Shown: positions 35,914 through 46,554 of the stretch, piece by piece | Layout: each line of letters begins with the position of its first letter | Position numbering within the stretch: position 1 is the stretch's first letter | Assembly (NCBI GenBank): GCA_021775495.1 | Contig: JAJFHT010000060.1 | Coordinates: forward strand, 1 to 51,976 | Origin: Hyphomicrobiales bacterium | GTDB lineage: Bacteria; Pseudomonadota; Alphaproteobacteria; Rhizobiales; Rhizobiaceae | Length of the DNA stretch: 51,976 nucleotides | Reading direction: 5' to 3' | Position numbers and translations under genes: made by a program | The notes under the pieces: generated by a model | The model's input: only the letters and a program-made list of their open reading frames with translations | Told to the model about the DNA's origin: nothing | Database searches by the model: none

Positions 35914-36006
35914 GTCATCTATCCTTCCAGATAGCAGCCCCTCGGTGGGGAGGGGTGGCCCATTGGCGGGATTACTTGAACGTCACAAAAAGCGCAAGTC
36001 CGTTGT
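35914..36006 (-). ncRNA. serC leader RNA (5' UTR regulatory structure)
   Basis: On the minus strand the region before serC contains three stems in order. The first is ACTTG/CAAGT around a U-rich loop with GCGCTTTTTGTGACG. The second is CCCCT/AGGGG. The third is CTATC/GATAG, whose loop is the serC ribosome binding site (GGAAGG). This matches the description of the serC leader of alphaproteobacteria, in which the last stem overlaps the ribosome binding site. It would control translation of serC, and possibly serA. The ligand or sensing mechanism is unknown. Confidence 0.8.
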
Positions 36007-36026: not shown

Positions 36027-36062
36027 CCCTTTGTCCCGCGCCCTTGAGCGCAGGACAAAGGG
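36027..36062 (-). terminator. Strong hairpin after the carrier-protein gene
   Basis: Arms CCCTTTGTCC (36027-36036) and GGACAAAGGG (36053-36062) pair perfectly over 10 bp, with a further short GCGC/GCGC stem inside. It lies 28 bp after the carrier-protein stop codon on the minus strand and before the serC leader. It therefore separates the aminoacylation operon from serC-serA. The following T content is modest (GACAGTTTGACT). Confidence 0.75.
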
Positions 36063-36090
36063 TTCATCGCATAAACATGTCGCCCGCTCG

Positions 36091-36342
36091 TCAGGCAGAA
36101 AGCCGCGCGTCAGCGTCAAATGAGACACCCTTGCCCACCAGCAATGAACGCATGTCGCCAAGGTTCTGCATGCTGACCATTTCAGGCATGGTGAAGCGCA
36201 CGCCAAAAGCGGTCTCTACAGCAAGCATGAGCTCGATATGACGCAGCGAATCCCAGTTCGGGGTATTCAGCGCGTTTGATTCCTCACTCAGGATTCCGGT
36301 TTCGATTTTCAGAATTCCTGCAACAACTTCAAAAAGTTTCAT
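36091..36342 (-). CDS. Acyl-carrier-protein-like aminoacyl carrier protein
   Basis: 83-residue carrier protein. The phosphopantetheine site is NWDSLRHIELMLAVE with Ser32 in the DSL motif. The surrounding helices (helix 1 KLFEVVAGILKI, helix 2 SLRHIELMLAVETAFG, helix 3 NLGDMRSLL) match the ACP fold, but it does not resemble the fatty-acid AcpP closely. It is encoded 65 bp after the amino acid:carrier-protein ligase, the arrangement known for such ligases and their cognate carriers. I infer that it bears a small amino acid as a thioester, like DltC. I chose the ATG at 36342 because TAGGAGGCG is 6 bp upstream; the longer frame to 36513 overlaps the ligase gene. It is the last gene of the operon. 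Confidence 0.88.
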   Translation of the reverse strand: MKLFEVVAGILKIETGILSEESNALNTPNWDSLRHIELMLAVETAFGVRFTMPEMVSMQNLGDMRSLLVGKGVSFDADARLSA

Positions 36343-36407
36343 TTTATCGCCTCCTAGTTTAAGTCCCTGTTGAATTTTTGGTTTTTGTGTTTTTGATTTC
36401 AGTTTGA

Positions 36408-37619
36408 TCAGTCGAAAATTCTGTTGCGCACTTCCTCGGGCCACCTGTCGGGCTCGAAGCCGTGATGGGTAAAGGCAGCCAGCACCCAGCGTTCGATACC
36501 GAGTCCCACACAACCGGTCATCGCCGGTTTTTCATCGGTATCGCGAATGTCGAAACGCTCACCAAAGAAATTGCCGTGAAGATTGATCGACCCGCAGGCG
36601 ATCGTTTTGACTTGACCCTCGGCATCCAGCACGGGGATCTTGATTTCGTTTTTCACTTCCTGGGCGGCCTGCCAGAATTTCTTGGCCGCCGATACGGTTG
36701 CAAAGAACGGATCAGTTGCCGTTTGGAGCTTACAATCCATGTCAAAAAATGCCGCCAGTTCGGAAACCAGCGGAACCGAACGGTTGCGCACGTCGCTGAC
36801 GTAATCTTCCGAACCGACGAAAACCAGTTCGCGGACATTGAACTCGTACAGCCGGTCGAGCCCCGATATGTTGCGGGATTCGTAACGGAATACGCGCCCC
36901 ATCCAGGTGAAACATTCACCGGTCTCGTAGCGCTTTCCCTTCAGTGTCGGGTAGGCAGGAAAACAGGCCGCCGGATTCAGGCACATGCCATCGATATGCA
37001 CATGATCACGATGTGGCATATGGGCACCTTCGGAACACGAGTTCGCAACCCGGAACTCCTCGATGGCATCGAAATCCTCGATCATGTTTCCGACAAAGGT
37101 GACGGCGTTTGGATGGCTGTCGAAATAACCGCATTTGTGCAGAGTATCGGCGTCGATCATCGCCGGGAAATGGCCATCTGCAGCCTTGAATTCCCGAGCG
37201 TACAGTTCGGCGGCCTTTTCATTGATCAACTGTGCCAGTTTCAAAACCGGCCCATTATATGCAACCTGGCCGGAGCCATAATCATGCACCCAACCGCGTT
37301 CGACCAGGCCCTGGTTGACGTCTTTCTGATAGGGTCCTTCATCCTTACGCACGGATTCGGAAAATACCTTGATCTCGTAACCCGAGACCTGTTTGGCCAT
37401 CACGTCTAGAAAACGTGCAGCCTTGTCCATCACCGCCTCGACGTCACGACGGTCCTGCAGGACAACAGTTGCGGTTTTGCCGTCTTCGGCAACGATGATG
37501 CGATCGATTGCCGGAGAGACAAACACCGATTCCTTTTCGATGTCGCCCGCAACCTCCTCATCGACCTGCCGTGGCATATCGATTGCAATCTGCATGCGCT
37601 GGTTCAATTGTTTGTTCAT
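36408..37619 (-). CDS. Amino acid:[carrier protein] ligase (class II SerRS-like)
   Basis: 403 residues. The C-terminal two-thirds resemble the catalytic core of atypical (archaeal-type) seryl-tRNA synthetase. Motif 2 is FRYESRNISGLDRLYEF (244-260) and motif 3 is GLGIERWVLAAF (372-383). Cys219, Glu264 and Cys370 form a plausible zinc triad with spacing similar to that recalled for this enzyme group. No tRNA-binding coiled coil is present. Proteins of this kind from Bradyrhizobium and Agrobacterium are known to adenylate glycine or alanine and load it on a carrier protein, not on tRNA. The first ~90 residues are an extra domain of unknown role. I chose the ATG at 37619, with GGAAGGGG upstream. 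The adjacent carrier, MBOAT and SGNH genes suggest that the amino acid is passed on to an envelope acceptor. Substrate is inferred. Confidence 0.85.
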   Translation of the reverse strand: MNKQLNQRMQIAIDMPRQVDEEVAGDIEKESVFVSPAIDRIIVAEDGKTATVVLQDRRDVEAVMDKAARFLDVMAKQVSGYEIKVFSESVRKDEGPYQKDVNQGLVERGWVHDYGSGQVAYNGPVLKLAQLINEKAAELYAREFKAADGHFPAMIDADTLHKCGYFDSHPNAVTFVGNMIEDFDAIEEFRVANSCSEGAHMPHRDHVHIDGMCLNPAACFPAYPTLKGKRYETGECFTWMGRVFRYESRNISGLDRLYEFNVRELVFVGSEDYVSDVRNRSVPLVSELAAFFDMDCKLQTATDPFFATVSAAKKFWQAAQEVKNEIKIPVLDAEGQVKTIACGSINLHGNFFGERFDIRDTDEKPAMTGCVGLGIERWVLAAFTHHGFEPDRWPEEVRNRIFD

Positions 37620-37659
37620 AATCTGGCCCCTTCCAAAGAGTTCATTTTTTTCCAGTCCC

Positions 37660-39177
37660 CTAGAACTGGTAGTAGAGAAACGACGAGTTCGATCCGATGT
37701 TGGTGAGGGCCACAACGAACAGCGCTGCGGTCGCTACGGACCAACCAAGAGCCGGACGCCAGCTGAACGACTCGACAAAAGAACTGAAACTGTCGGGTTT
37801 CGGAGTACAGCTGAGCCAGTCACGGGAGAGAATTTCCTGCGTGTTCGGTGCCACCAGGACGATTGCGCCGAAAACCAGGATCATCGGGAAAACGTCGGCC
37901 AGAACCAGCGAAACGGACTCAGCTGCAATGTCCGGAAACAACATCGAGACGCCCCACATGGACGACAGAATGGTCAGCGCGGTCGGCACATCGGCCGCAC
38001 GGAAAATGGCCAAACCACTTGCCACCACCGACATCGTCATCAGCCAGCCCATTGCCGGTGAGATTTTTGGCAGGTTGAACTGTTTCCAACCATTATTGAC
38101 CGCGATGGCAACTCCGTGCAGCAGACCGTAGAGAACAAACACCCAGCCTGATCCGTGCCAGATACCGGCCACCAGCATAGTGAATACAATTGGCCATGCG
38201 CCGGAAACCATGTAACGGCGTAGGGGCTCATATTGACCGCCTACGGCCTTGCGCATTCCCTTCATGGCGACCGGTGAATAGACGAACGTGGTGAAGAACC
38301 GCGTCATCGTCATATGCCAACGCTGCCAGAAATCGGATATGCTGGTTGCCTTGAAGGGCGAGTTGAAATTCAACGGCAGCATGATTCCGAATATGGCGCC
38401 CAGCCCGAGAGCCATGTCGGAGTAACCGGAAAAATCAAAATAGAGCTGCAGGGTGTAGGCAAGCGTTCCCGCCCACGCGGTCACCATGTCAATCGATTGA
38501 CCCGCTGCCACACCGTTGAAGGCAGTGTTGGCGAAGGGCCCAATACTGTCGGCCAGCACCACTTTCTTGAAAAGCCCCATGGTGAACATGGCGCTGCCAA
38601 CCGCAATTCGGCGGGCATCAAGAACAGAATCCTTTCGGTCTTCCATCTGCTTGAAAATTTCGCGCTGCAGAACAAGCGGTCCGGCCGTCACGCAGGGAAA
38701 GAAGGTGGCAAATGTTACATAACGGACAAAAGGTTGCTGTTTGGCTTGCCCTGCATGCGCTTCGATCAGGTAACCGATCTGGATGAAGGTATAGAAGGAA
38801 ATGCCGATCGGCAGAATGGTTTCCAGATGCGAAATCCCTCCCCCGGTCACCTGATTGGCGATGTCGACGAAGAAGTTCATATATTTGAAATAGCCTAGCG
38901 CAACGATGTTGCCGATGATGCCTGCAGCAAGCAGTGAGCCAGAAGCTTTGCCGGCTTCAGTTGATCGGATCAGCACATTGCCAATGACATAGTTTGAGAC
39001 GACCGATACCGACAGAATGCCCAGAAAAAGCACGCTGAACTGCCCGTAGAACACCAATGAAGCCACCGCCAGCACACCGTAAGCGGCTTGCCATCCGGCA
39101 AATCGCTGGGCTGCCGCATAGGCAATGAATGCCAATGGCAGAAAGATGATGATAAACTCGTAGGAATTGAAAATCAT
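37660..39177 (-). CDS. MBOAT-family O-acyltransferase (DltB/AlgI type)
   Basis: 505-residue polytopic inner-membrane protein with about 11-13 TM helices. MBOAT hallmarks are present: LPIGISFYTFIQIGYLIE, FPCVTAGPLVLQREIF, LYFDFSGYSDMALGLGAIFGI (quoted in part), DFWQRWHMTMTRFF with His288, and the catalytic-type His341 in WHGSGW. DltB and AlgI relatives move an acyl group from a cytoplasmic donor across the membrane to a secreted acceptor. Here the likely donor is the aminoacylated carrier protein encoded downstream, as in DltB-DltC; that link is inferred from gene order. The start is 10 bp after the stop of the BASS-SGNH gene. C-terminal residues (SSFLYYQF) end near the last helix, as in DltB/AlgI. 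Confidence 0.9.
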   Translation of the reverse strand: MIFNSYEFIIIFLPLAFIAYAAAQRFAGWQAAYGVLAVASLVFYGQFSVLFLGILSVSVVSNYVIGNVLIRSTEAGKASGSLLAAGIIGNIVALGYFKYMNFFVDIANQVTGGGISHLETILPIGISFYTFIQIGYLIEAHAGQAKQQPFVRYVTFATFFPCVTAGPLVLQREIFKQMEDRKDSVLDARRIAVGSAMFTMGLFKKVVLADSIGPFANTAFNGVAAGQSIDMVTAWAGTLAYTLQLYFDFSGYSDMALGLGAIFGIMLPLNFNSPFKATSISDFWQRWHMTMTRFFTTFVYSPVAMKGMRKAVGGQYEPLRRYMVSGAWPIVFTMLVAGIWHGSGWVFVLYGLLHGVAIAVNNGWKQFNLPKISPAMGWLMTMSVVASGLAIFRAADVPTALTILSSMWGVSMLFPDIAAESVSLVLADVFPMILVFGAIVLVAPNTQEILSRDWLSCTPKPDSFSSFVESFSWRPALGWSVATAALFVVALTNIGSNSSFLYYQF

Positions 39178-39187
39178 TTTCCTGTCC

Positions 39188-41647
39188 TCAGCCTTTCAGT
39201 GCGCCGCGAAGCACATAATCGAATGTCGGTTTCACTTCGGCACCGTTTTCTCCAGCGCCATACTGATTGAGCAGCATGCCAAGACAGGTCGGATTTCCGT
39301 GTTCGGCATCGATATACATGTTTGATGTGCAGCCGACGGCATCGGGTGCGAACCCGCCGATGAAGTCGAAACCGTATTTGTCGGCCCAGCTCTGCGTCAG
39401 TTCTTCGATCTTTTTCAGACCATCCATGTAGGGGCTGTCTTCAACACCCGACCAGAAGATCGGATTGAATTGCGGGTGAGCAAGCGTGACCTTGACCCCT
39501 TTTTCGGTAAGAAAATCAAACAGCGCTTCCATATGCGCGACCCCCTTGGGATCGATTTTCGGCGGATCGTTTCGGCGCGCCTGAGCAAATGCCATTGCTT
39601 CTTTGCGTGCACGTTCCTGGGTGAAAAGCCGTTTATGTTCTCCCGACCAGAGGATCGAGCCTCCGGGCAGCAGCGTATCGAGCGTTTCGAAATCACGCTG
39701 CACCGTCGCATGCGGCTGCACAGGACCTGTCAGCATCATCGTTGCCTGGCTCATCAGGAGAGGCATTGACAGCAGTTCCCGCCAGGTATTGACCGGCAGC
39801 GTTTCCCAAACACTGTGCGGCTCAAGGCCAATGCGCTTTGCAAATTCGCGATAATACTTGATGCCCGGCAGCCACAGGAAATCGGTGCGATCCTTGATTG
39901 GTGTCAGCAGGTTGTCGCGGATAGTGATAATCATTTCCTTCGGAAGCTTGCCGTTTGCAGTCCACATTTCCGTCACGGCAAGCATGTCTTCGTAGTAGTC
40001 GCGGTGGACATGCGAGTTGTAGAAGTCCCGGCCCTCAAGCAATTCGACATGAGCTTCCTGCCAGTGACTGGCACCCAGCACTACGACTTCCGGTGTTTTT
40101 ACCATCCGTTCGATGGTCGCGTTGCGCAGATCCCGAATATTGATATTCAGATCGAAAACACCGAAATTCCTGCCGTCGGTATGGGCCTGCGCCACCTTGC
40201 TGATCAGTTCCTGATCAAACAGCATCGGTGAAAAATACCGGTTCGCCTGCCAGACGGCAGCTGTGCCGGCTACACACAACACCAGAAACAAGGCGATGTA
40301 GCGCGCTGAAACAGCTTTCAGTTTCGATGCAGTGGCCACGGCAACCGGAGCGGCCTGTGTATAATGCACGCTCAGCCGATTGAGCAGAGCGCGCGCGTCA
40401 TCGCGGGAGACTTCAAGCCCGTCCGTCAGATATTCTTCAAGATTCTCATCGACTTTAACTGGCTCAGCAGTGGTCTGCATCGGGACGGCATAATCATCCA
40501 AATCAAGGGCAGTGGCTGTTGCCGTGTTGCCAGTCGGCAAAATACCGTGGAATTGGCGCGATCCGCCACCAACGGAACCGGTGAAACGTCCAGGTTGATT
40601 GGCAGCAGGTGAGATACGCCCGATGCCGGGATTAGCGCCGCCGGTTGAAACAGAAACCGGGTCTGCGGGAATCTCGTTTTCATTCGATTGTATATCGGGT
40701 TTCATCGTTCCCTCTCGTAGCGGAACCCGGCTTTTGCCGACAAAAAGGTCGAACAGCAGGGGTGAAAAGAACATCGGGATCTGGCAAACACCGACATAGA
40801 TCGCCAATTCCGATCCGGCGATGTGCCCAACAAGCCCGAATGTCAGCCCCACATTCCTGAAGCTCGCGAGCACCATTGCCGTGGTAGAAGCCGTTGCGCC
40901 AAATCTCGCCATGACCAATCGCGTGGTAAATCCGATACCGACTGCTACCGAGATGGCTATGGCAAGATAGGCGATGATCTGCTGTGGATTGTCGGAGATT
41001 GACTCGGTTACCTGTGCTTCCAAAGCGAAGCAGAAAGCCACCAGAGCCAAAACCGAACCCCATCGGCCGATGGTATCCACCTTGTCTTTCCCGGCGTCAC
41101 TCCAGCCTGAAATTTTCGACCTCAGCAACGCAAAAATGGCTATTGGGATCACCAGGAAAACCAGCATCCTAAATCCGAACAGGCTGAGATCCAGGGCCAA
41201 TACACTGCCTTGAAGCAAGCCAAAAAACAGGTAGATGGAAATCGGAGCGGCGATGGTTGAGACAATGACGGTCTGAACAGCCACCTTCTGGTTCAGCCCC
41301 ATCAGTTGCACCAGTGTCGGCGATGCAAATAGAGACCCGCTGGTTACCGTCACAAGGATAAAATAGAGGAGTTGGCGTTCCAAATCCAAAATCTGGGCAA
41401 CCATGATGACCAAAGCCGGCAAAATGAATTGCTGCCAAAACACCAGCGAGAGCACAACCGGATGCAACCGAGTGAGTTCGCCTGCCTCCAGCCGCGCAAA
41501 CGGAAACAGCGAGAACACCATTACGAAAAACAGTGACGGCAGGAGATAGGGTTCGAAAGCCCTTGAAATCTGAGGGAAAAACAGCGCGATGATTACGCCG
41601 AGCGCCAGAATCAAAGATGCCAGCGTTTTTTCGTCTTCAGCACGCAT
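39188..41647 (-). CDS. Fusion of a BASS-like transporter domain and a periplasmic SGNH/DltD-like domain
   Basis: 819 residues. Residues 1-305 form about ten TM helices with features of the bile acid:sodium symporter/arsenite permease fold, including a conserved FRNVGLTFGLVG segment. A 140-residue linker, low-complexity then with an acidic helix, follows (310-447). A second anchor helix lies at 449-468. Residues 480-819 form a periplasmic domain with GASHWQE (candidate nucleophile Ser527) and YIDAEHGNP (candidate Asp780 and His783), the first and last blocks of SGNH esterases/acyltransferases such as DltD. It is the first gene of the operon; MBOAT, ligase and carrier follow. I infer the transferase that completes the O-aminoacylation. 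The transporter half could move a substrate or be a scaffold. The ATG at 41647 has GTGGGG upstream; an in-frame TTG lies at 41659. Confidence 0.75.
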   Translation of the reverse strand: MRAEDEKTLASLILALGVIIALFFPQISRAFEPYLLPSLFFVMVFSLFPFARLEAGELTRLHPVVLSLVFWQQFILPALVIMVAQILDLERQLLYFILVTVTSGSLFASPTLVQLMGLNQKVAVQTVIVSTIAAPISIYLFFGLLQGSVLALDLSLFGFRMLVFLVIPIAIFALLRSKISGWSDAGKDKVDTIGRWGSVLALVAFCFALEAQVTESISDNPQQIIAYLAIAISVAVGIGFTTRLVMARFGATASTTAMVLASFRNVGLTFGLVGHIAGSELAIYVGVCQIPMFFSPLLFDLFVGKSRVPLREGTMKPDIQSNENEIPADPVSVSTGGANPGIGRISPAANQPGRFTGSVGGGSRQFHGILPTGNTATATALDLDDYAVPMQTTAEPVKVDENLEEYLTDGLEVSRDDARALLNRLSVHYTQAAPVAVATASKLKAVSARYIALFLVLCVAGTAAVWQANRYFSPMLFDQELISKVAQAHTDGRNFGVFDLNINIRDLRNATIERMVKTPEVVVLGASHWQEAHVELLEGRDFYNSHVHRDYYEDMLAVTEMWTANGKLPKEMIITIRDNLLTPIKDRTDFLWLPGIKYYREFAKRIGLEPHSVWETLPVNTWRELLSMPLLMSQATMMLTGPVQPHATVQRDFETLDTLLPGGSILWSGEHKRLFTQERARKEAMAFAQARRNDPPKIDPKGVAHMEALFDFLTEKGVKVTLAHPQFNPIFWSGVEDSPYMDGLKKIEELTQSWADKYGFDFIGGFAPDAVGCTSNMYIDAEHGNPTCLGMLLNQYGAGENGAEVKPTFDYVLRGALKG

Positions 41648-41680: not shown

Positions 41681-41721
41681 CTTCGGATACCGGTGTGCCC
41701 CCACACCAAAACGCTCCGAAG
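41681..41721 (-). other. Potential leader hairpin upstream of the aminoacylation operon
   Basis: The outer stem CTTCGGA (41681-41687) pairs with TCCGAAG (41715-41721). Inside it GGTGTG (41692-41697) pairs with CACACC (41702-41707) around a 4-nt loop. It lies 34-74 bp upstream of the first operon gene and within the 253-bp region divergent from the histidine kinase gene. It could be a 5' UTR regulatory structure or a binding site for a dimeric regulator. The pairing is directly visible; function is inferred. Confidence 0.55.
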
Positions 41722-41900: not shown

Positions 41901-43895
41901 ATGGGCGACACCGCTTTGGACAATATTGCTGAACAATTTGAACCGCGGAGCGACGCGATCGATCCAATATTGATCGATGTATTTGATGGCGTTGATTTCG
42001 GTCTGGCTGTGTTTGACAGTCATCTCAACCTTATCAGGGCGAACGCTCTTTACCTTGAGTTGTGCGGCTACCGACGCGAGGATGTGCCTGTCGGCACCCC
42101 GTTGAAGTTGCTCATGCAACGCGCACTGTCGGCTCAGGGACAGGTGGCATCCGATATCGAGACTTCGATCGCAACCACCTTGCTGCGTTTGAAGGTTGGC
42201 GGCACCCACAAATTTCGTTTTGAGCCTGTCAGCGGTCAATTCATTACCGTCACCAGACATCGCAACCCCGACGGCAACCTGATCGAAACCGTTCAGGAGG
42301 CGTCTGATGGCGACCACGATGCAGATCGTGCAGGGCAGTTGAAACACATCGCCGAGACCGCTCATTCGCGAATGATGCATGCGCTCGATACCATGATCGA
42401 CGGATTCGCGCTTTATGATCCGGACGATCGGCTGGTCTTCTACAATCAGAAATATGTGGAACTGAACCCACACATTGCCGACCTGATCAAACCGGGTGCA
42501 CATTACGAGACGATGCTTCGGGAAGGCATCGCGCGCGGTGGGATGAAGACCCAGGGAATGGACAAAGAGACCTTCATCAAATGGAGGTTGCATCAGCATT
42601 TCAATCCGGGGGAAGCACACGAGCATCAGTTGGAAGACGGACGCTGGATACGGGTCCTGGAGAAACAGACCGACGACGGCAGTATCGTTGGCACCAGGTC
42701 CGACATAACCGAGCTCAAGAACCGCGAACTTGAGGTTCAGCAAATTTCCGGTGTGCTGGACAAGACCAACGGCCAATTCGACATCGCGATAAACAACATG
42801 ATCCAGGGTCTGTGCATGTTTGACAGCGATCAGAAACTGATCCTGTGCAATCGGCAATATCTGGAGATGTACGGATTCTCTGCTGAAGTAGTCAAACCGG
42901 GCATTTCACTGTCCGATATCATGCGATATTCGATTTCGCTGGGTAATTATCGCGAACAGGACGCGCAAGCCGCCTTGAAGGCCCGGCATGATCCCGACAA
43001 GCTGAAGAAGCAGACAACAATCAAGCAGTTCCTGCGTGATGGCAGGGTTATGGCTGTGATGAATAAACCGATGCCCAATGGCGGTTCGATTGCCACGTAT
43101 CAGGACATTACCGTCATTGAGCAGCATGATATCACGCTCATGGCCTATACGAAGAAACTCGAGCGCTCGAACCGAGAACTGCAAGATTTCGCTTATGTCG
43201 CATCCCACGATCTTCAAGAGCCGCTCCGCAAGATTGAAGCGTTTGGAGATCGGTTGCTTCACAAACACAGTGACAAACTCCCCGATGACGGCAAAATGTT
43301 TATTGATCGCATGCAAAATGCCGCAATGCGCATGCGCCAGCTGATCAACGACCTGCTCAGCTATTCCCGTGTGACGACAAAGGCAAAACCATTCAAGAAC
43401 GTGGATCTGAATGAGGTCCTGGAGGGAGTTCTCTCCGATATCCAGATGCGGATACAGGATTCCGGCGGCAAGGTGGAATTCGGGGAACTTCCGGTTTTCA
43501 TTGCCGATCCGACGCAGATGCGTCAACTGTTCCAGAACCTCATTTCCAACGCGCTAAAATTCCGCAAGCCGGATGTCGACCCCGTTGTCAAAATTACCGC
43601 GACGGCCGTCAAACATGAAGATGAAAGCGGAAACGCACTCGACTTTTGGCGTTTTGAAATCGCCGACAACGGCATCGGATTCGACAACCAGTACAAGGAG
43701 CAGATTTTCACGATCTTCCAACGGCTCCACGGGCGGGTCGAGTTCGAAGGTACTGGCATCGGATTGGCAACCTGCCGGAAAATTGTCGAAAGACATGAGG
43801 GAGTAATTGATGCGGAAGGCGTCCCGGATGTCGGCGCGACATTCATAATCGAATTGCCGGCAGTTCAGAAAATCGAGGAAGAAACAGACTCATGA
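41901..43895 (+). CDS. Cytoplasmic multi-PAS sensor histidine kinase
   Basis: 664 residues without TM helices. Three PAS-like segments (about 25-135, 155-275 and 290-405; the last two are of the PAS_7 type, with GFALYDPDDRLVFYN and GLCMFDSDQKLILCN) are followed by HisKA with FAYVASHDLQEPLRKI (His436). The ATPase domain has QNLISNALKF (N box), IADNGIGFD (G1) and GTGIGLATCRKI (G2). The H-box and kinase type resemble phytochrome-like kinases (Cph1/Rcp1 pairs), but no phytochrome GAF/PHY domain is present. The signal is unknown; PAS domains could bind a small ligand or cofactor. It overlaps the next gene, an Rcp1-like receiver, by 4 bp (ATGA), so the two form a pair. Confidence 0.9.
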   Translation: MGDTALDNIAEQFEPRSDAIDPILIDVFDGVDFGLAVFDSHLNLIRANALYLELCGYRREDVPVGTPLKLLMQRALSAQGQVASDIETSIATTLLRLKVGGTHKFRFEPVSGQFITVTRHRNPDGNLIETVQEASDGDHDADRAGQLKHIAETAHSRMMHALDTMIDGFALYDPDDRLVFYNQKYVELNPHIADLIKPGAHYETMLREGIARGGMKTQGMDKETFIKWRLHQHFNPGEAHEHQLEDGRWIRVLEKQTDDGSIVGTRSDITELKNRELEVQQISGVLDKTNGQFDIAINNMIQGLCMFDSDQKLILCNRQYLEMYGFSAEVVKPGISLSDIMRYSISLGNYREQDAQAALKARHDPDKLKKQTTIKQFLRDGRVMAVMNKPMPNGGSIATYQDITVIEQHDITLMAYTKKLERSNRELQDFAYVASHDLQEPLRKIEAFGDRLLHKHSDKLPDDGKMFIDRMQNAAMRMRQLINDLLSYSRVTTKAKPFKNVDLNEVLEGVLSDIQMRIQDSGGKVEFGELPVFIADPTQMRQLFQNLISNALKFRKPDVDPVVKITATAVKHEDESGNALDFWRFEIADNGIGFDNQYKEQIFTIFQRLHGRVEFEGTGIGLATCRKIVERHEGVIDAEGVPDVGATFIIELPAVQKIEEETDS

Positions 43896-44344
43896 ACGAT
43901 CCCAAACCCATTCGTATTCTCATCGCTGATGACGACGCCGATGATCGCATGCTGATCGCCGACGCGCTTGAAGAGGCACGCCTGAAGAATCCGGTCGACT
44001 TTGTGGAAGACGGCGTCGAATTAATGGAATATCTCAATCATGAGGGGGACTACGCGCACCTCACCGATGATCATCTGCCCAGTATTATTCTGCTGGACCT
44101 GAACATGCCGAGAAAAGACGGACGTACTGCATTGAAGGAAATCAGAGCCGATGAAAAACTGCGGAGGATTCCGATCGTCGTGCTGACCACATCAAAATCC
44201 GAGGAAGATATCCTGCGCACCTACAATCTCGGTGTGAACTCCTTCATAACCAAACCCGTGACGTTCAACGGTCTGGTTGAAGTCGTTCAGATCCTTTCAA
44301 AATATTGGATCGAGATCGTCGCCTTACCGCACGATTTTGATTGA
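43892..44344 (+). CDS. Single-domain response regulator (Rcp1-like)
   Basis: 150 residues, a stand-alone receiver. The acidic pocket is IADDDADD (12-18), the phosphoacceptor Asp69 lies in LLDLNMPRKDG, and the signature VVLTTSKSEEDI and FITKPVT follow. The insert between strand 2 and helix 2 (LNHEGDYAHLTDDHLPS) is typical of Rcp1 regulators paired with phytochrome-type kinases. It has no output domain and so probably relays to another protein, for example the receiver-GGDEF-EAL protein downstream. Translationally coupled to the kinase. Confidence 0.92.
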   Translation: MNDPKPIRILIADDDADDRMLIADALEEARLKNPVDFVEDGVELMEYLNHEGDYAHLTDDHLPSIILLDLNMPRKDGRTALKEIRADEKLRRIPIVVLTTSKSEEDILRTYNLGVNSFITKPVTFNGLVEVVQILSKYWIEIVALPHDFD

Positions 44345-44499
44345 TGGACATTTGACTTCGAGAACAAGGTTACACCAAATCGAATATCAATATATACTGG
44401 CGTTAACAGATTTTTATTCACGATAGATAATCGCTGATTTCGTTTACCCAACGAACATTCCATTCGCGCATATTGAATGAAATGCTTTGGGGAAAGCTT

Positions 44500-46554
44500 G
44501 TGGGAACCGATAAAATACAGATCCTTGTTGTCGATGACGATGAGGACGATATTTATCTGATTTGCGATACGATTTCGGAGTGTCCAGGCAACTCCTACTC
44601 GGTTCGCACGTCAAACAAACCGCCAGAAGCTGCGGAAATCCTGCGGCAAGGCGGTGTGGATGTCGTCCTTTGCGACTATGTCATGGGTTCGGTCACCGGA
44701 ATTGATTTCATCACCGCCGCCCGTGCCGAGGGGATCGATGTTCCGATCATCCTTCTGACAGGAATGGCGGCTGGTTCCGCCGATCAGGCCGCACTTGAAG
44801 CCGGCGCTTCCGATTTCATTTCCAAGACCAATATGACATCGGAAGTGATCGACAGGGCGATACGCTATTCAATCGCGAATACGGAACGCCATCGACTGTT
44901 CCAGACAGTGCTGAACAACGTCAACGCAGCGGTCGCACTGATCGACCGGGACCAGCAGCCAACACTGTGGAATCCGGAATTCGGCGAACTTGCCAAAAAC
45001 CATGCAAACGACAGCGGTTGCGAAGCGGACATCGAAGCCTTCGCCGGTGAGATGCTTGCAGCCAAGCGCACCATTTCTATCGGCGGACGCGTCCTCGACA
45101 AAAATGTTTCCAATACACCCGACAATGGTGTCGTCATTATCCTTCACGATGTGACGGAACACGTGGAAGCTCTGCGCGAGCGGGAAAAGGCCGAGAACCG
45201 GGCAGCGCATCTTGCAATGAATTGTTCGCTGACAAGCCTGCCGAACCGCAATGCTTTCTCCGAGCGGATCAACAGCGAAATAGCAGATGCGAAATCTCAG
45301 GGACGCGAGTTCTATCTCCTGAATCTCGATCTCAACAAATTCAAGGAAGTCAACGATATTTACGGACACAACAAAGGTGATCTGCTGTTGATCGAGGTTG
45401 CCCAGCGCCTGTCCGATTGTTGCCAGGGAGACGATTATATCGCCCGCCTCGGCGGTGATGAATTCATGGCGATCCAGACCAAGCCGCCGGGTTCGACGGA
45501 TCTGCCGTCGCTGGCCAAGCGAATTGGTCTGTCGGTCGACACATCGATCCAGGTAGATGACATCCTCGTCCGCACCGGAGTCAGCATCGGCGTTGCGGTT
45601 TTTCCGCATCATGGTGAAACGGCTGAAGAATTGATGTCCAAGGCAGACATCGCGATGTATCGGGCGAAGGCGGATCCGATCAATCGGATATACGCCTACG
45701 ACGAGGAAATGGACAGAAATGTCCGTGAAACGATGAAGATCGGACAGGAGCTTCGCAAGGCCGTCGAAAATGGCTGCATCGATGTCTATTTCCAACCGCA
45801 AGCCGATTTCGAACGCGGCGAGACCATTGGATTTGAAGCGCTGGCCCGCTGGAATCATCCTGAACTCGGACCGATTCCGCCATCCACATTTATTCCGATT
45901 GCCGAAGAGAACGGATTGATCACCGAACTCGGCGAACTGGCGTTGACGCGAGCTTGTGAAATTGCGGCCGGCTGGGACAACTCACTCTCAGTCGCCGTAA
46001 ACATCTCGCCGGTTCAGATCCGCCATGTCGATCTGCCGGCGCTGGTACATTCGGTGTTGCTGAAAACCGGTTTGCCGCCAAGTCGACTTGAACTCGAAGT
46101 CACAGAAAGTGTGCTCATTGACGACGAAAGCCGCGCACTTCACGCTTTACGGGGAATAAAGAATCTGGGTGTATCGATTGCGCTCGATGACTTCGGCACG
46201 GGTTACTCGTCCTTGTCGACGCTAATTTCGTTTCCATTCGACAAAATCAAGGTCGATCGTTCGTTTGTCGAACAGCTCGGGCACAACCATCAGGCGGACG
46301 TCATCATACGGGCAATCATTGGCATGGCCCATCAACTGGGCTTCAAGATCATTGCCGAGGGTGTCGAGAACCGCGAACAAATCGAATTCCTGCTCAGGGA
46401 ACGATGCCACGAGATGCAGGGCTTCTTCATTGGCAGACCCGTCCCTGCCGACAACATTTCAGAATATCTCGCGAGTTCCAAAACCTCTGGCATCCGGCAG
46501 CAGAGTATTGTCAGGAATGAAAATGACGAGATCAATAAACGACGGGCCGTATGA
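44500..46554 (+). CDS. Response regulator with GGDEF and EAL domains (c-di-GMP turnover)
   Basis: About 684 residues. The receiver comes first (QILVVDDDEDD, phosphoacceptor in VVLCDYVMG), then a short PAS-like segment (about 135-240), GGDEF with an intact RLGGDEF motif and EAL with intact EAL (in GFEALARW), DDFGTGYSS, KVDRS and AEGVE. Both synthesis and breakdown of c-di-GMP are possible. I chose GTG at 44500 because GGGGAAAG lies at the right distance; the next upstream ATG (44482) and TTG (44473) have no ribosome binding site. The 155-bp AT-rich gap before it suggests its own promoter, but it lies in the same direction as the kinase and receiver and probably acts with them. Confidence 0.9.
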   Translation: MGTDKIQILVVDDDEDDIYLICDTISECPGNSYSVRTSNKPPEAAEILRQGGVDVVLCDYVMGSVTGIDFITAARAEGIDVPIILLTGMAAGSADQAALEAGASDFISKTNMTSEVIDRAIRYSIANTERHRLFQTVLNNVNAAVALIDRDQQPTLWNPEFGELAKNHANDSGCEADIEAFAGEMLAAKRTISIGGRVLDKNVSNTPDNGVVIILHDVTEHVEALREREKAENRAAHLAMNCSLTSLPNRNAFSERINSEIADAKSQGREFYLLNLDLNKFKEVNDIYGHNKGDLLLIEVAQRLSDCCQGDDYIARLGGDEFMAIQTKPPGSTDLPSLAKRIGLSVDTSIQVDDILVRTGVSIGVAVFPHHGETAEELMSKADIAMYRAKADPINRIYAYDEEMDRNVRETMKIGQELRKAVENGCIDVYFQPQADFERGETIGFEALARWNHPELGPIPPSTFIPIAEENGLITELGELALTRACEIAAGWDNSLSVAVNISPVQIRHVDLPALVHSVLLKTGLPPSRLELEVTESVLIDDESRALHALRGIKNLGVSIALDDFGTGYSSLSTLISFPFDKIKVDRSFVEQLGHNHQADVIIRAIIGMAHQLGFKIIAEGVENREQIEFLLRERCHEMQGFFIGRPVPADNISEYLASSKTSGIRQQSIVRNENDEINKRRAV

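Follow-up and report, generated by a model that had tools for sequence, protein, structure and literature searches.

The Dlt system of Gram-positive bacteria (DltA, DltC, DltB, DltX and DltD) combines an amino acid loaded on a carrier protein, an MBOAT protein with a carrier-docking segment, a tyrosine-bearing shuttle hexapeptide and an SGNH transferase. According to PMC12148441, the shuttle motif of Dlt is placed on DltX, MBOAT/SGNH pathways other than Dlt are described as lacking a carrier protein, and acetylation systems of the PatA-PatB and AlgI type are described as drawing on acyl-CoA, with a C-terminal FxYxxF on the MBOAT protein itself (PatA acetylates the Tyr of its own FXYXXF) and a separate SGNH partner. 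Carrier ligases are reviewed as synthetase paralogs in PMC9437257. One of them, related to seryl-tRNA synthetase (SerRS), is Bradyrhizobium Bll0957 (3mey, 4h2s), and a note in proof of 2010 proposed that systems of the Bll0957 type attach an amino acid to a sugar on the cell surface via Atu2574 and by another transferase (PMC2922099). Here we describe a four-gene operon in a 51,976-nucleotide stretch from a Hyphomicrobiales bacterium (contig JAJFHT010000060.1 of assembly GCA_021775495.1; hereafter the window). The operon encodes a carrier, a SerRS-like ligase, an MBOAT O-acyltransferase and a protein with an SGNH domain, and we consider it likely that the carrier receives a small amino acid from the ligase, that the MBOAT protein shuttles this amino acid to its own tyrosine and that the SGNH domain esterifies an acceptor in the envelope.

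Judged by its genes, the operon is expected to work like Dlt, yet it stands outside Dlt by its loader and by the separate DltX of that system. Whereas the Dlt loader is an adenylation domain (DltA), that of the operon is a relative of class II aminoacyl-tRNA synthetases; the shuttle peptide, borne by DltX in Dlt, is fused to the MBOAT protein in the operon, where no search for a separate microprotein was made; and a bile acid/sodium symporter (BASS) domain accompanies the SGNH domain, by fusion or by linkage, in a Gram-negative host, in which teichoic acid is not expected. The operon also differs from the PatA-PatB and AlgI type in having a carrier gene, and its MBOAT proteins lack the short GG[NSG] loop that AlgI and PatA carry. 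With Bll0957 the operon ligase shares the fold, the zinc ligands and an adjacent carrier gene, but Bll0957 is shorter (346 residues in the PDB including the tag, against 403) and its short-form relatives make up a separate clade. AlmEFG of Vibrio cholerae also places carrier-borne glycine on a Gram-negative envelope molecule, but does so with an adenylation-domain loader and an unrelated transferase. AlmE is mentioned in PMC12930378.

A first-pass annotation made from the letters of the window had proposed four consecutive minus-strand genes, and reading frames and profile matches bear out the four genes in that order (Table 1), with gaps of 10, 40 and 65 bp from SGNH through MBOAT and ligase to carrier. 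Pfam matched the ligase, the MBOAT protein and the carrier, the last just under the cut-off (E 1e-3, 19.8 bits against 20.8), and the SGNH protein, scanned with both Pfam and NCBIfam, yielded no match in either. Compared with its nearest relative (locus L002), the window differs mostly at codon position 3 (39, 28 and 204 differences at the three positions in the ligase).

Table 1. Features of the operon and of the adjoining genes in the window.
Feature	Coordinates	Strand	Basis
Terminator-like hairpin 3' of the carrier gene	36027..36062	-	-32.8 kcal/mol, z -7.6, without T-run
Carrier protein, 83 amino acids, NWDSLRH phosphopantetheine site (DltC role)	36091..36342	-	PP-binding
SerRS-like amino acid:carrier ligase, 403 amino acids (DltA role)	36408..37619	-	Pfam tRNA-synt_2b E 4.1e-8
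MBOAT O-acyltransferase, 505 amino acids (DltB role), His288 (RWH), His341 (WHG)	37660..39177	-	Pfam E 2.4e-22
Acyl-shuttle hexapeptide FLYYQF (FxYxxF), Tyr502, MBOAT C-terminus	37663..37680	-	Motif per PMC12148441
Segment SPVAMKGMRKAV, aligned with DltC-docking helix HC of DltB	38242..38277	-	Alignment, DltB residues per PMC11035591
BASS-SGNH fusion protein, 819 amino acids (DltD role plus N-terminal transporter-like domain)	39188..41647	-	Sequence and model
SGNH domain, Ser527 (GASHWQEA), Asp780/His783 (IDAEH)	39248..40180	-	Motifs and model
Hydrophobic helix ahead of SGNH domain, residues 450-466	40250..40300	-	Sequence and model
BASS fold domain, residues 1-309 (~309)	40721..41647	-	AF2 model
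Sensor kinase PAS_7 x3 - HisKA - HATPase, divergent	41901..43895	+	Pfam
CheY-like single-domain response regulator	43892..44344	+	Pfam
Receiver-GGDEF-EAL protein, variable island partner	44473..46554	+	Pfam

The proposal had been tied to conserved linkage in related genomes, and such linkage was found. Among 19 related genomes, window included, with a ligase of at least 65% identity, the SGNH, MBOAT and ligase genes are contiguous and in the same order in 18 of the 19 orthologous loci; under random placement, an MBOAT gene would be expected at 5 kb or less from the ligase in 0.06 of 19 genomes, an expectation to be read with the relatedness of the genomes in mind. The carrier gene follows the ligase in every one of the 17 contigs that extend far enough (those of L005 and L082 end within the ligase), and its motif W[DS]S[LA].H, Ser included, is conserved in 17/17. 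No MBOAT besides that of the operon was found in 14 of the 19 genomes, and in one, G1129, there is none at all.

The activating enzyme had been taken for a class II synthetase relative, and its profile match is indeed to tRNA-synt_2b and not to AMP-binding. Its zinc ligands (C219, E264 and C370) align with those of Bll0957 (C131, E176 and C279 in native numbering); the class II motifs comprise R245/E247 and E376-R377, and C219, E264, C370, R245, E247 and R377 are invariant among the 19 aligned ligases. The structural model gives tied scores against the SerRS of M. barkeri (Z 29.6), against Bll0957 (29.3) and against the SerRS of M. kandleri (29.2), and the DPFF residues inspected do not tell the glycine ligase and the M. 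kandleri SerRS apart. Three family-profile scores all lie below their cut-offs: 162.6 bits against 357 for the carrier-ligase model NF005479, 122.7 against 489.6 for the type-2 SerRS model TIGR00415, and 154 bits for another type-2 SerRS model. The nearness of these scores would favour a protein that charges tRNA, with a tRNA-dependent step supplying the amino acid. However, the alignment to M. kandleri SerRS begins at residue 123, so that most of the SerRS2 N-terminal domain, which binds tRNA, is missing, and the genome also encodes an ordinary SerRS (506 bits); on these two grounds a tRNA-charging role is unlikely. With a carrier gene adjacent in 17/17 loci and no further family common to most of the 19 loci, we regard tRNA charging as the source of the amino acid as highly improbable.

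In a tree of 35 ligases, which included 9 of the 19 orthologs and left out Bll0957 itself, the window clade (100/99) stands apart from a Bll0957-like clade of short-form ligases (100/100), which takes in 11 of the 12 short rows. The characterised rhizobial SerRS-like ligases invoked by the first-pass annotation belong to a clade different from that of the window ligase; one annotated short-form example lies beside acyl-CoA dehydrogenase, DUF1839 and GH2 genes, not MBOAT. The ligases paired with an MBOAT gene fall into three branches of this tree, whose well-supported branches require two changes or more. At the other two pairings (L046; L055 with L056) a carrier gene adjoins, as does a gene that looks SGNH-like by eye. 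A single genome holds two ligase-MBOAT-SGNH systems, at L056 (G613:C1) and L045 (G613:C75), in separate ligase branches.

At E <= 0.01 the only sequence relatives of the MBOAT protein in the PDB are those of DltB (6bug/8jem, E 1e-33). The RWH and WHG motifs are conserved in nine aligned MBOATs, and all 18 operon MBOATs terminate in F[LV]YY[QK]F, with more distant ligase-linked MBOATs terminating in FIYFQF or FIYFRF. According to PMC11035591, DltB residues Met302, Val305, Ile306, Met309, Lys312 and Arg317 contact DltC, and the residue numbering of this contact was checked. A segment of the operon MBOAT, SPVAMKGMRKAV, aligns at the docking residues M302, V305, I306 and M309, and the carrier would dock there. 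In the MBOAT tree the operon proteins group with two ordinary GG-loop MBOATs (100/99) and not with DltB, a long branch represented by a fragment only and of unsure position. The segment aligned with the docking helix probably arose more than once, as suggested by the nearness of the operon MBOATs to these two GG-loop proteins.

The short GG[NSG] loop is absent from all 21 ligase-linked MBOATs, which have in its place a longer segment without GG, aligned with the DltC-docking helix of DltB. A first control of eight unlinked MBOATs contained GG loops in seven, and among 31 unlinked MBOATs from the same genomes the short loop is present in 22 and absent in nine. These nine exceptions led to a test of carrier linkage, for which unlinked MBOATs had been sorted by loop by eye on the alignment before their neighbourhoods were fetched, and in which carriers were sought with a profile built from those beside the ligases. 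The sample took in every locus with an exception (eight loci, nine MBOATs) and 12 of the 22 with a GG loop. Where the short GG loop is absent, 8/8 loci have a carrier gene nearby, with best E values from 9.3e-24 to 8.8e-16; where it is present, 0/12 do (best E 0.61). The association has a Fisher p of 8e-6 over 20 partly related loci. One exception (L112, at locus L119) has an insert ending in GG and was counted with the exceptions; at L119 and L120 several kb separate the carrier gene from the MBOAT gene, L117 and L118 are close relatives, and FxYxxF is absent at the reading-frame end in four of the nine exceptions. The loader at the eight loci is FkbH in seven and an adenylation-domain/carrier fusion in one.

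In the seven FkbH loci (L116-L122), FkbH, carrier, non-GG-loop MBOAT and, by eye, SGNH-like genes are clustered. FkbH makes glyceryl-carrier, and these clusters look like glyceryl-carrier-fed envelope acylation systems. They share with the operon a carrier-fed MBOAT without the short GG loop, and differ in that FkbH, not an amino acid ligase, is the loader.

The first gene of the operon had been read as encoding a periplasmic SGNH domain; the SGNH domain stands, and the protein is in fact a two-domain BASS-SGNH fusion. The model of the SGNH domain matches the esterase 7ddy (VIA Z 14.2; Foldseek only E 0.03), and the fold is assigned on this match together with the invariant Ser and DxxH, the motifs GAS[HQ]WQE and ID.EH being conserved in 18/18 operon loci. 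Pfam DltD reaches only E 0.18 in one homolog and gives nothing in the window protein; the SGNH fold and the Ser, Asp and His residues are present. The helix at residues 450-466 would place the SGNH domain in the periplasm, the topology expected from the model. For the N-terminal domain, sequence searches returned only weak Mem_trans or ASBT matches, and a BASS fold is indicated by the model (mean pLDDT 73.8), which aligns with 6lh1 over 294 residues (VIA Z 25.6, root-mean-square deviation 3.4) and has a best Foldseek match of E 1.3e-6.

Fusion of BASS with SGNH is seen in three loci (window, L002 and L005), and the BASS gene is a separate neighbour in 12 loci and lies on the opposite strand in L045. 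In L079 (4995-5976) it consists of two overlapping reading frames, a frameshift or an assembly error. BASS proteins transport small organic anions, and the fusion in three loci with a BASS gene nearby in 13 more could mean that the BASS domain handles the acceptor, as a lipid or a small molecule for export, and that the system would make or export an aminoacylated metabolite and not a modified polymer. Against this, no BASS gene was found beside the operon in three of the 19 loci (L080, L081 and L082, on contigs of 15, 9 and 5 kb), and the position of ASBT N115, presumably a sodium ligand, is an invariant Pro in the BASS domain (TM9 lies outside the alignment), which makes sodium-driven transport doubtful. 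As known MBOAT-SGNH pairs also modify polymers (PMC12148441), we judge a metabolite acceptor unlikely.

The core idea of the first-pass annotation, that a carrier charged by a SerRS-like enzyme feeds an MBOAT-SGNH export route, is supported by these sequence tests: the genes stay linked at 18 of the 19 loci, the catalytic and shuttle motifs are kept and the MBOAT lacks the GG loop. In the proposed sequence of events, the zinc-dependent ligase would activate a small amino acid with ATP and load it on the phosphopantetheine of the carrier; the charged carrier would dock on the cytoplasmic face of the MBOAT protein, which would transfer the aminoacyl group to the Tyr in the FLYYQF at its own C-terminus; and the periplasmic SGNH Ser would accept the group and esterify a hydroxyl in the envelope. 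The divergent PAS kinase and CheY-like regulator would probably control when the line runs.

Several observations weigh against this route. The NCBIfam DltB match of the window MBOAT (185 bits, below the cut-off of 375) was rejected as a sign of kinship with DltB, since the match is unspecific and eight unlinked MBOATs score alike (153-174 bits, against 159-196 for three operon MBOATs). The 18 operon MBOATs form one clade and count as one case, and the ligase-linked MBOATs together as three. Locus L081, in a genome that is 82% complete (G1129), has the ligase, carrier and kinase with no MBOAT or SGNH gene there, and no MBOAT was found across that genome at this completeness. No short-form ligase genome shows MBOAT linkage (0/12), and only one of the 12 has any MBOAT. 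Among long-form ligase loci, 11 of 20 have an MBOAT gene within 5 kb and nine do not, some of the contigs being short. The loop test, finally, rests on 20 loci, some of them related, and one of its eight carrier-bearing loci (L119) holds an MBOAT whose loop was classed by eye.

The nine long-form loci without a nearby MBOAT indicate that the ligase family probably serves other pathways as well, and they fit a reading in which ligase and carrier feed such a pathway, for example one making a redox-modified aminoacyl carrier or a peptide, while MBOAT and SGNH move acyl groups from acyl-CoA and share the operon through a common envelope polymer. Two Streptomyces plasmid relatives, located between acyl-CoA dehydrogenase and acyltransferase genes in polyketide synthase/nonribosomal peptide synthetase (PKS/NRPS) clusters, point the same way. 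However, the MBOAT loop class fits feeding by a carrier, no partner gene of the kind recurs in the flanks of the 19 loci, and the same MBOAT pairing is seen in three ligase branches; we consider an acyl-CoA-fed MBOAT improbable and prefer the carrier-fed route.

Some of the other ligase loci deserve mention in their own right. L047 and L051-L054 have a long-form ligase and a carrier with no MBOAT nearby, which points to a further use of the ligase, and the L051 pair lies by GNAT-like and polysaccharide-type genes (assigned by eye). The plasmid relatives (L037 and L038) are full-length, 32% identical and annotated 'hypothetical protein'; in their PKS/NRPS clusters they stand beside genes for a 3-hydroxyacyl-CoA dehydrogenase, a carrier and an acyl-CoA dehydrogenase, an arrangement that presumably resembles aminomalonyl-carrier cassettes. 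A plasmid search with the operon ligase returned 85 matching records, all below 60% identity, and no close copy among them.

As a guess from the enzyme family, with a loader related to class II synthetases, the transferred amino acid would be glycine, L-alanine or L-serine and not D-alanine. The serC and serA genes 3' of the operon are a weak argument for serine, serA being nearby in only two of the 19 loci (window and L002); a near-operon serA candidate in L081 is only a 30% relative. Reading frames in all 19 loci, with flanks of 5 to 26 kb in all, were clustered into families in a scan for acceptor genes. No family outside the island is shared by more than seven of the 19 loci, so that no rival conserved partner emerged, nor did any polysaccharide gene as a clue to the acceptor, in flanks that are short and with functions assigned by eye. 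Genes resembling TRAP transporters lie near the island in six or seven loci (L003, L041, L043, L076, L078, L079 and L080), perhaps as shared local synteny.

The operon had further been credited with its own leader hairpin and terminator. The leader, near 41682-41720, folds only moderately (z -2.9 over an 81-nt stretch), and the hairpin 3' of the carrier gene is only a likely terminator; the plain label was dropped, as the hairpin has no T-run and is not listed by a terminator pattern scan, which listed only a weaker site (36081-36097) beside the carrier gene end. An Rfam serC leader on the minus strand (35914-35965, 64.5 bits) lies between the operon and serC and belongs to serC.

Divergent from the operon is a set of signalling genes, which the first-pass annotation had missed, as it had the BASS domain and the shuttle motif. 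An ortholog of the PAS kinase stands beside the operon in 16/19 loci; the L004 contig ends before the kinase position, and L080 and L082 have a different receiver-kinase instead. The CheY-like ortholog is present in 15/19 loci, the remaining four contigs ending at its expected place. The receiver-GGDEF-EAL gene is replaced by a 763-residue receiver-kinase hybrid in L042, L083, L084 and L085, and L081 has a GGDEF-EAL gene that is broken in the assembly. In L045 (5698-7404, 568 amino acids) a receiver domain (Pfam E 5e-9) is fused to SGNH, which suggests direct control of the SGNH transferase by phosphorylation; the receiver domain would be expected in the cytoplasm, and its phosphorylation could act on the transferase directly.

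The distribution of the ligase is patchy: in the sampled genomes, at E <= 1e-38, matches occur in 7/397 genomes from the order, 3/385 from the class (one a distant relative) and 10/398 from the phylum (only the window close), and in 11/69, 1/2 and 4/99 from the families f23, f116 and f2, respectively. No description of this gene set was found by title, abstract start or passages of the literature, most subscription papers being outside reach, which is no proof of novelty.

The broader proposal, which we put forward tentatively as a possibility, is that of a signal-gated, synthetase-derived ligase sending an L-amino acid or glycine via a tyrosine-ester shuttle to a Gram-negative envelope, within a modular class of carrier-fed MBOATs with interchangeable loaders (adenylation domain, FkbH or SerRS-like ligase) that would be marked by the lack of the GG[NSG] loop. 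The loop rule would serve as a sequence test separating carrier-fed from acyl-CoA-fed MBOATs. If the carrier-fed route is true, it would provide both a route and a destination for the aminoacyl carriers of synthetase-like ligases, whose purpose has apparently been open since 2010, and it would extend Dlt-like surface modification to the Alphaproteobacteria, with an L-amino acid or glycine and an unrelated loader.

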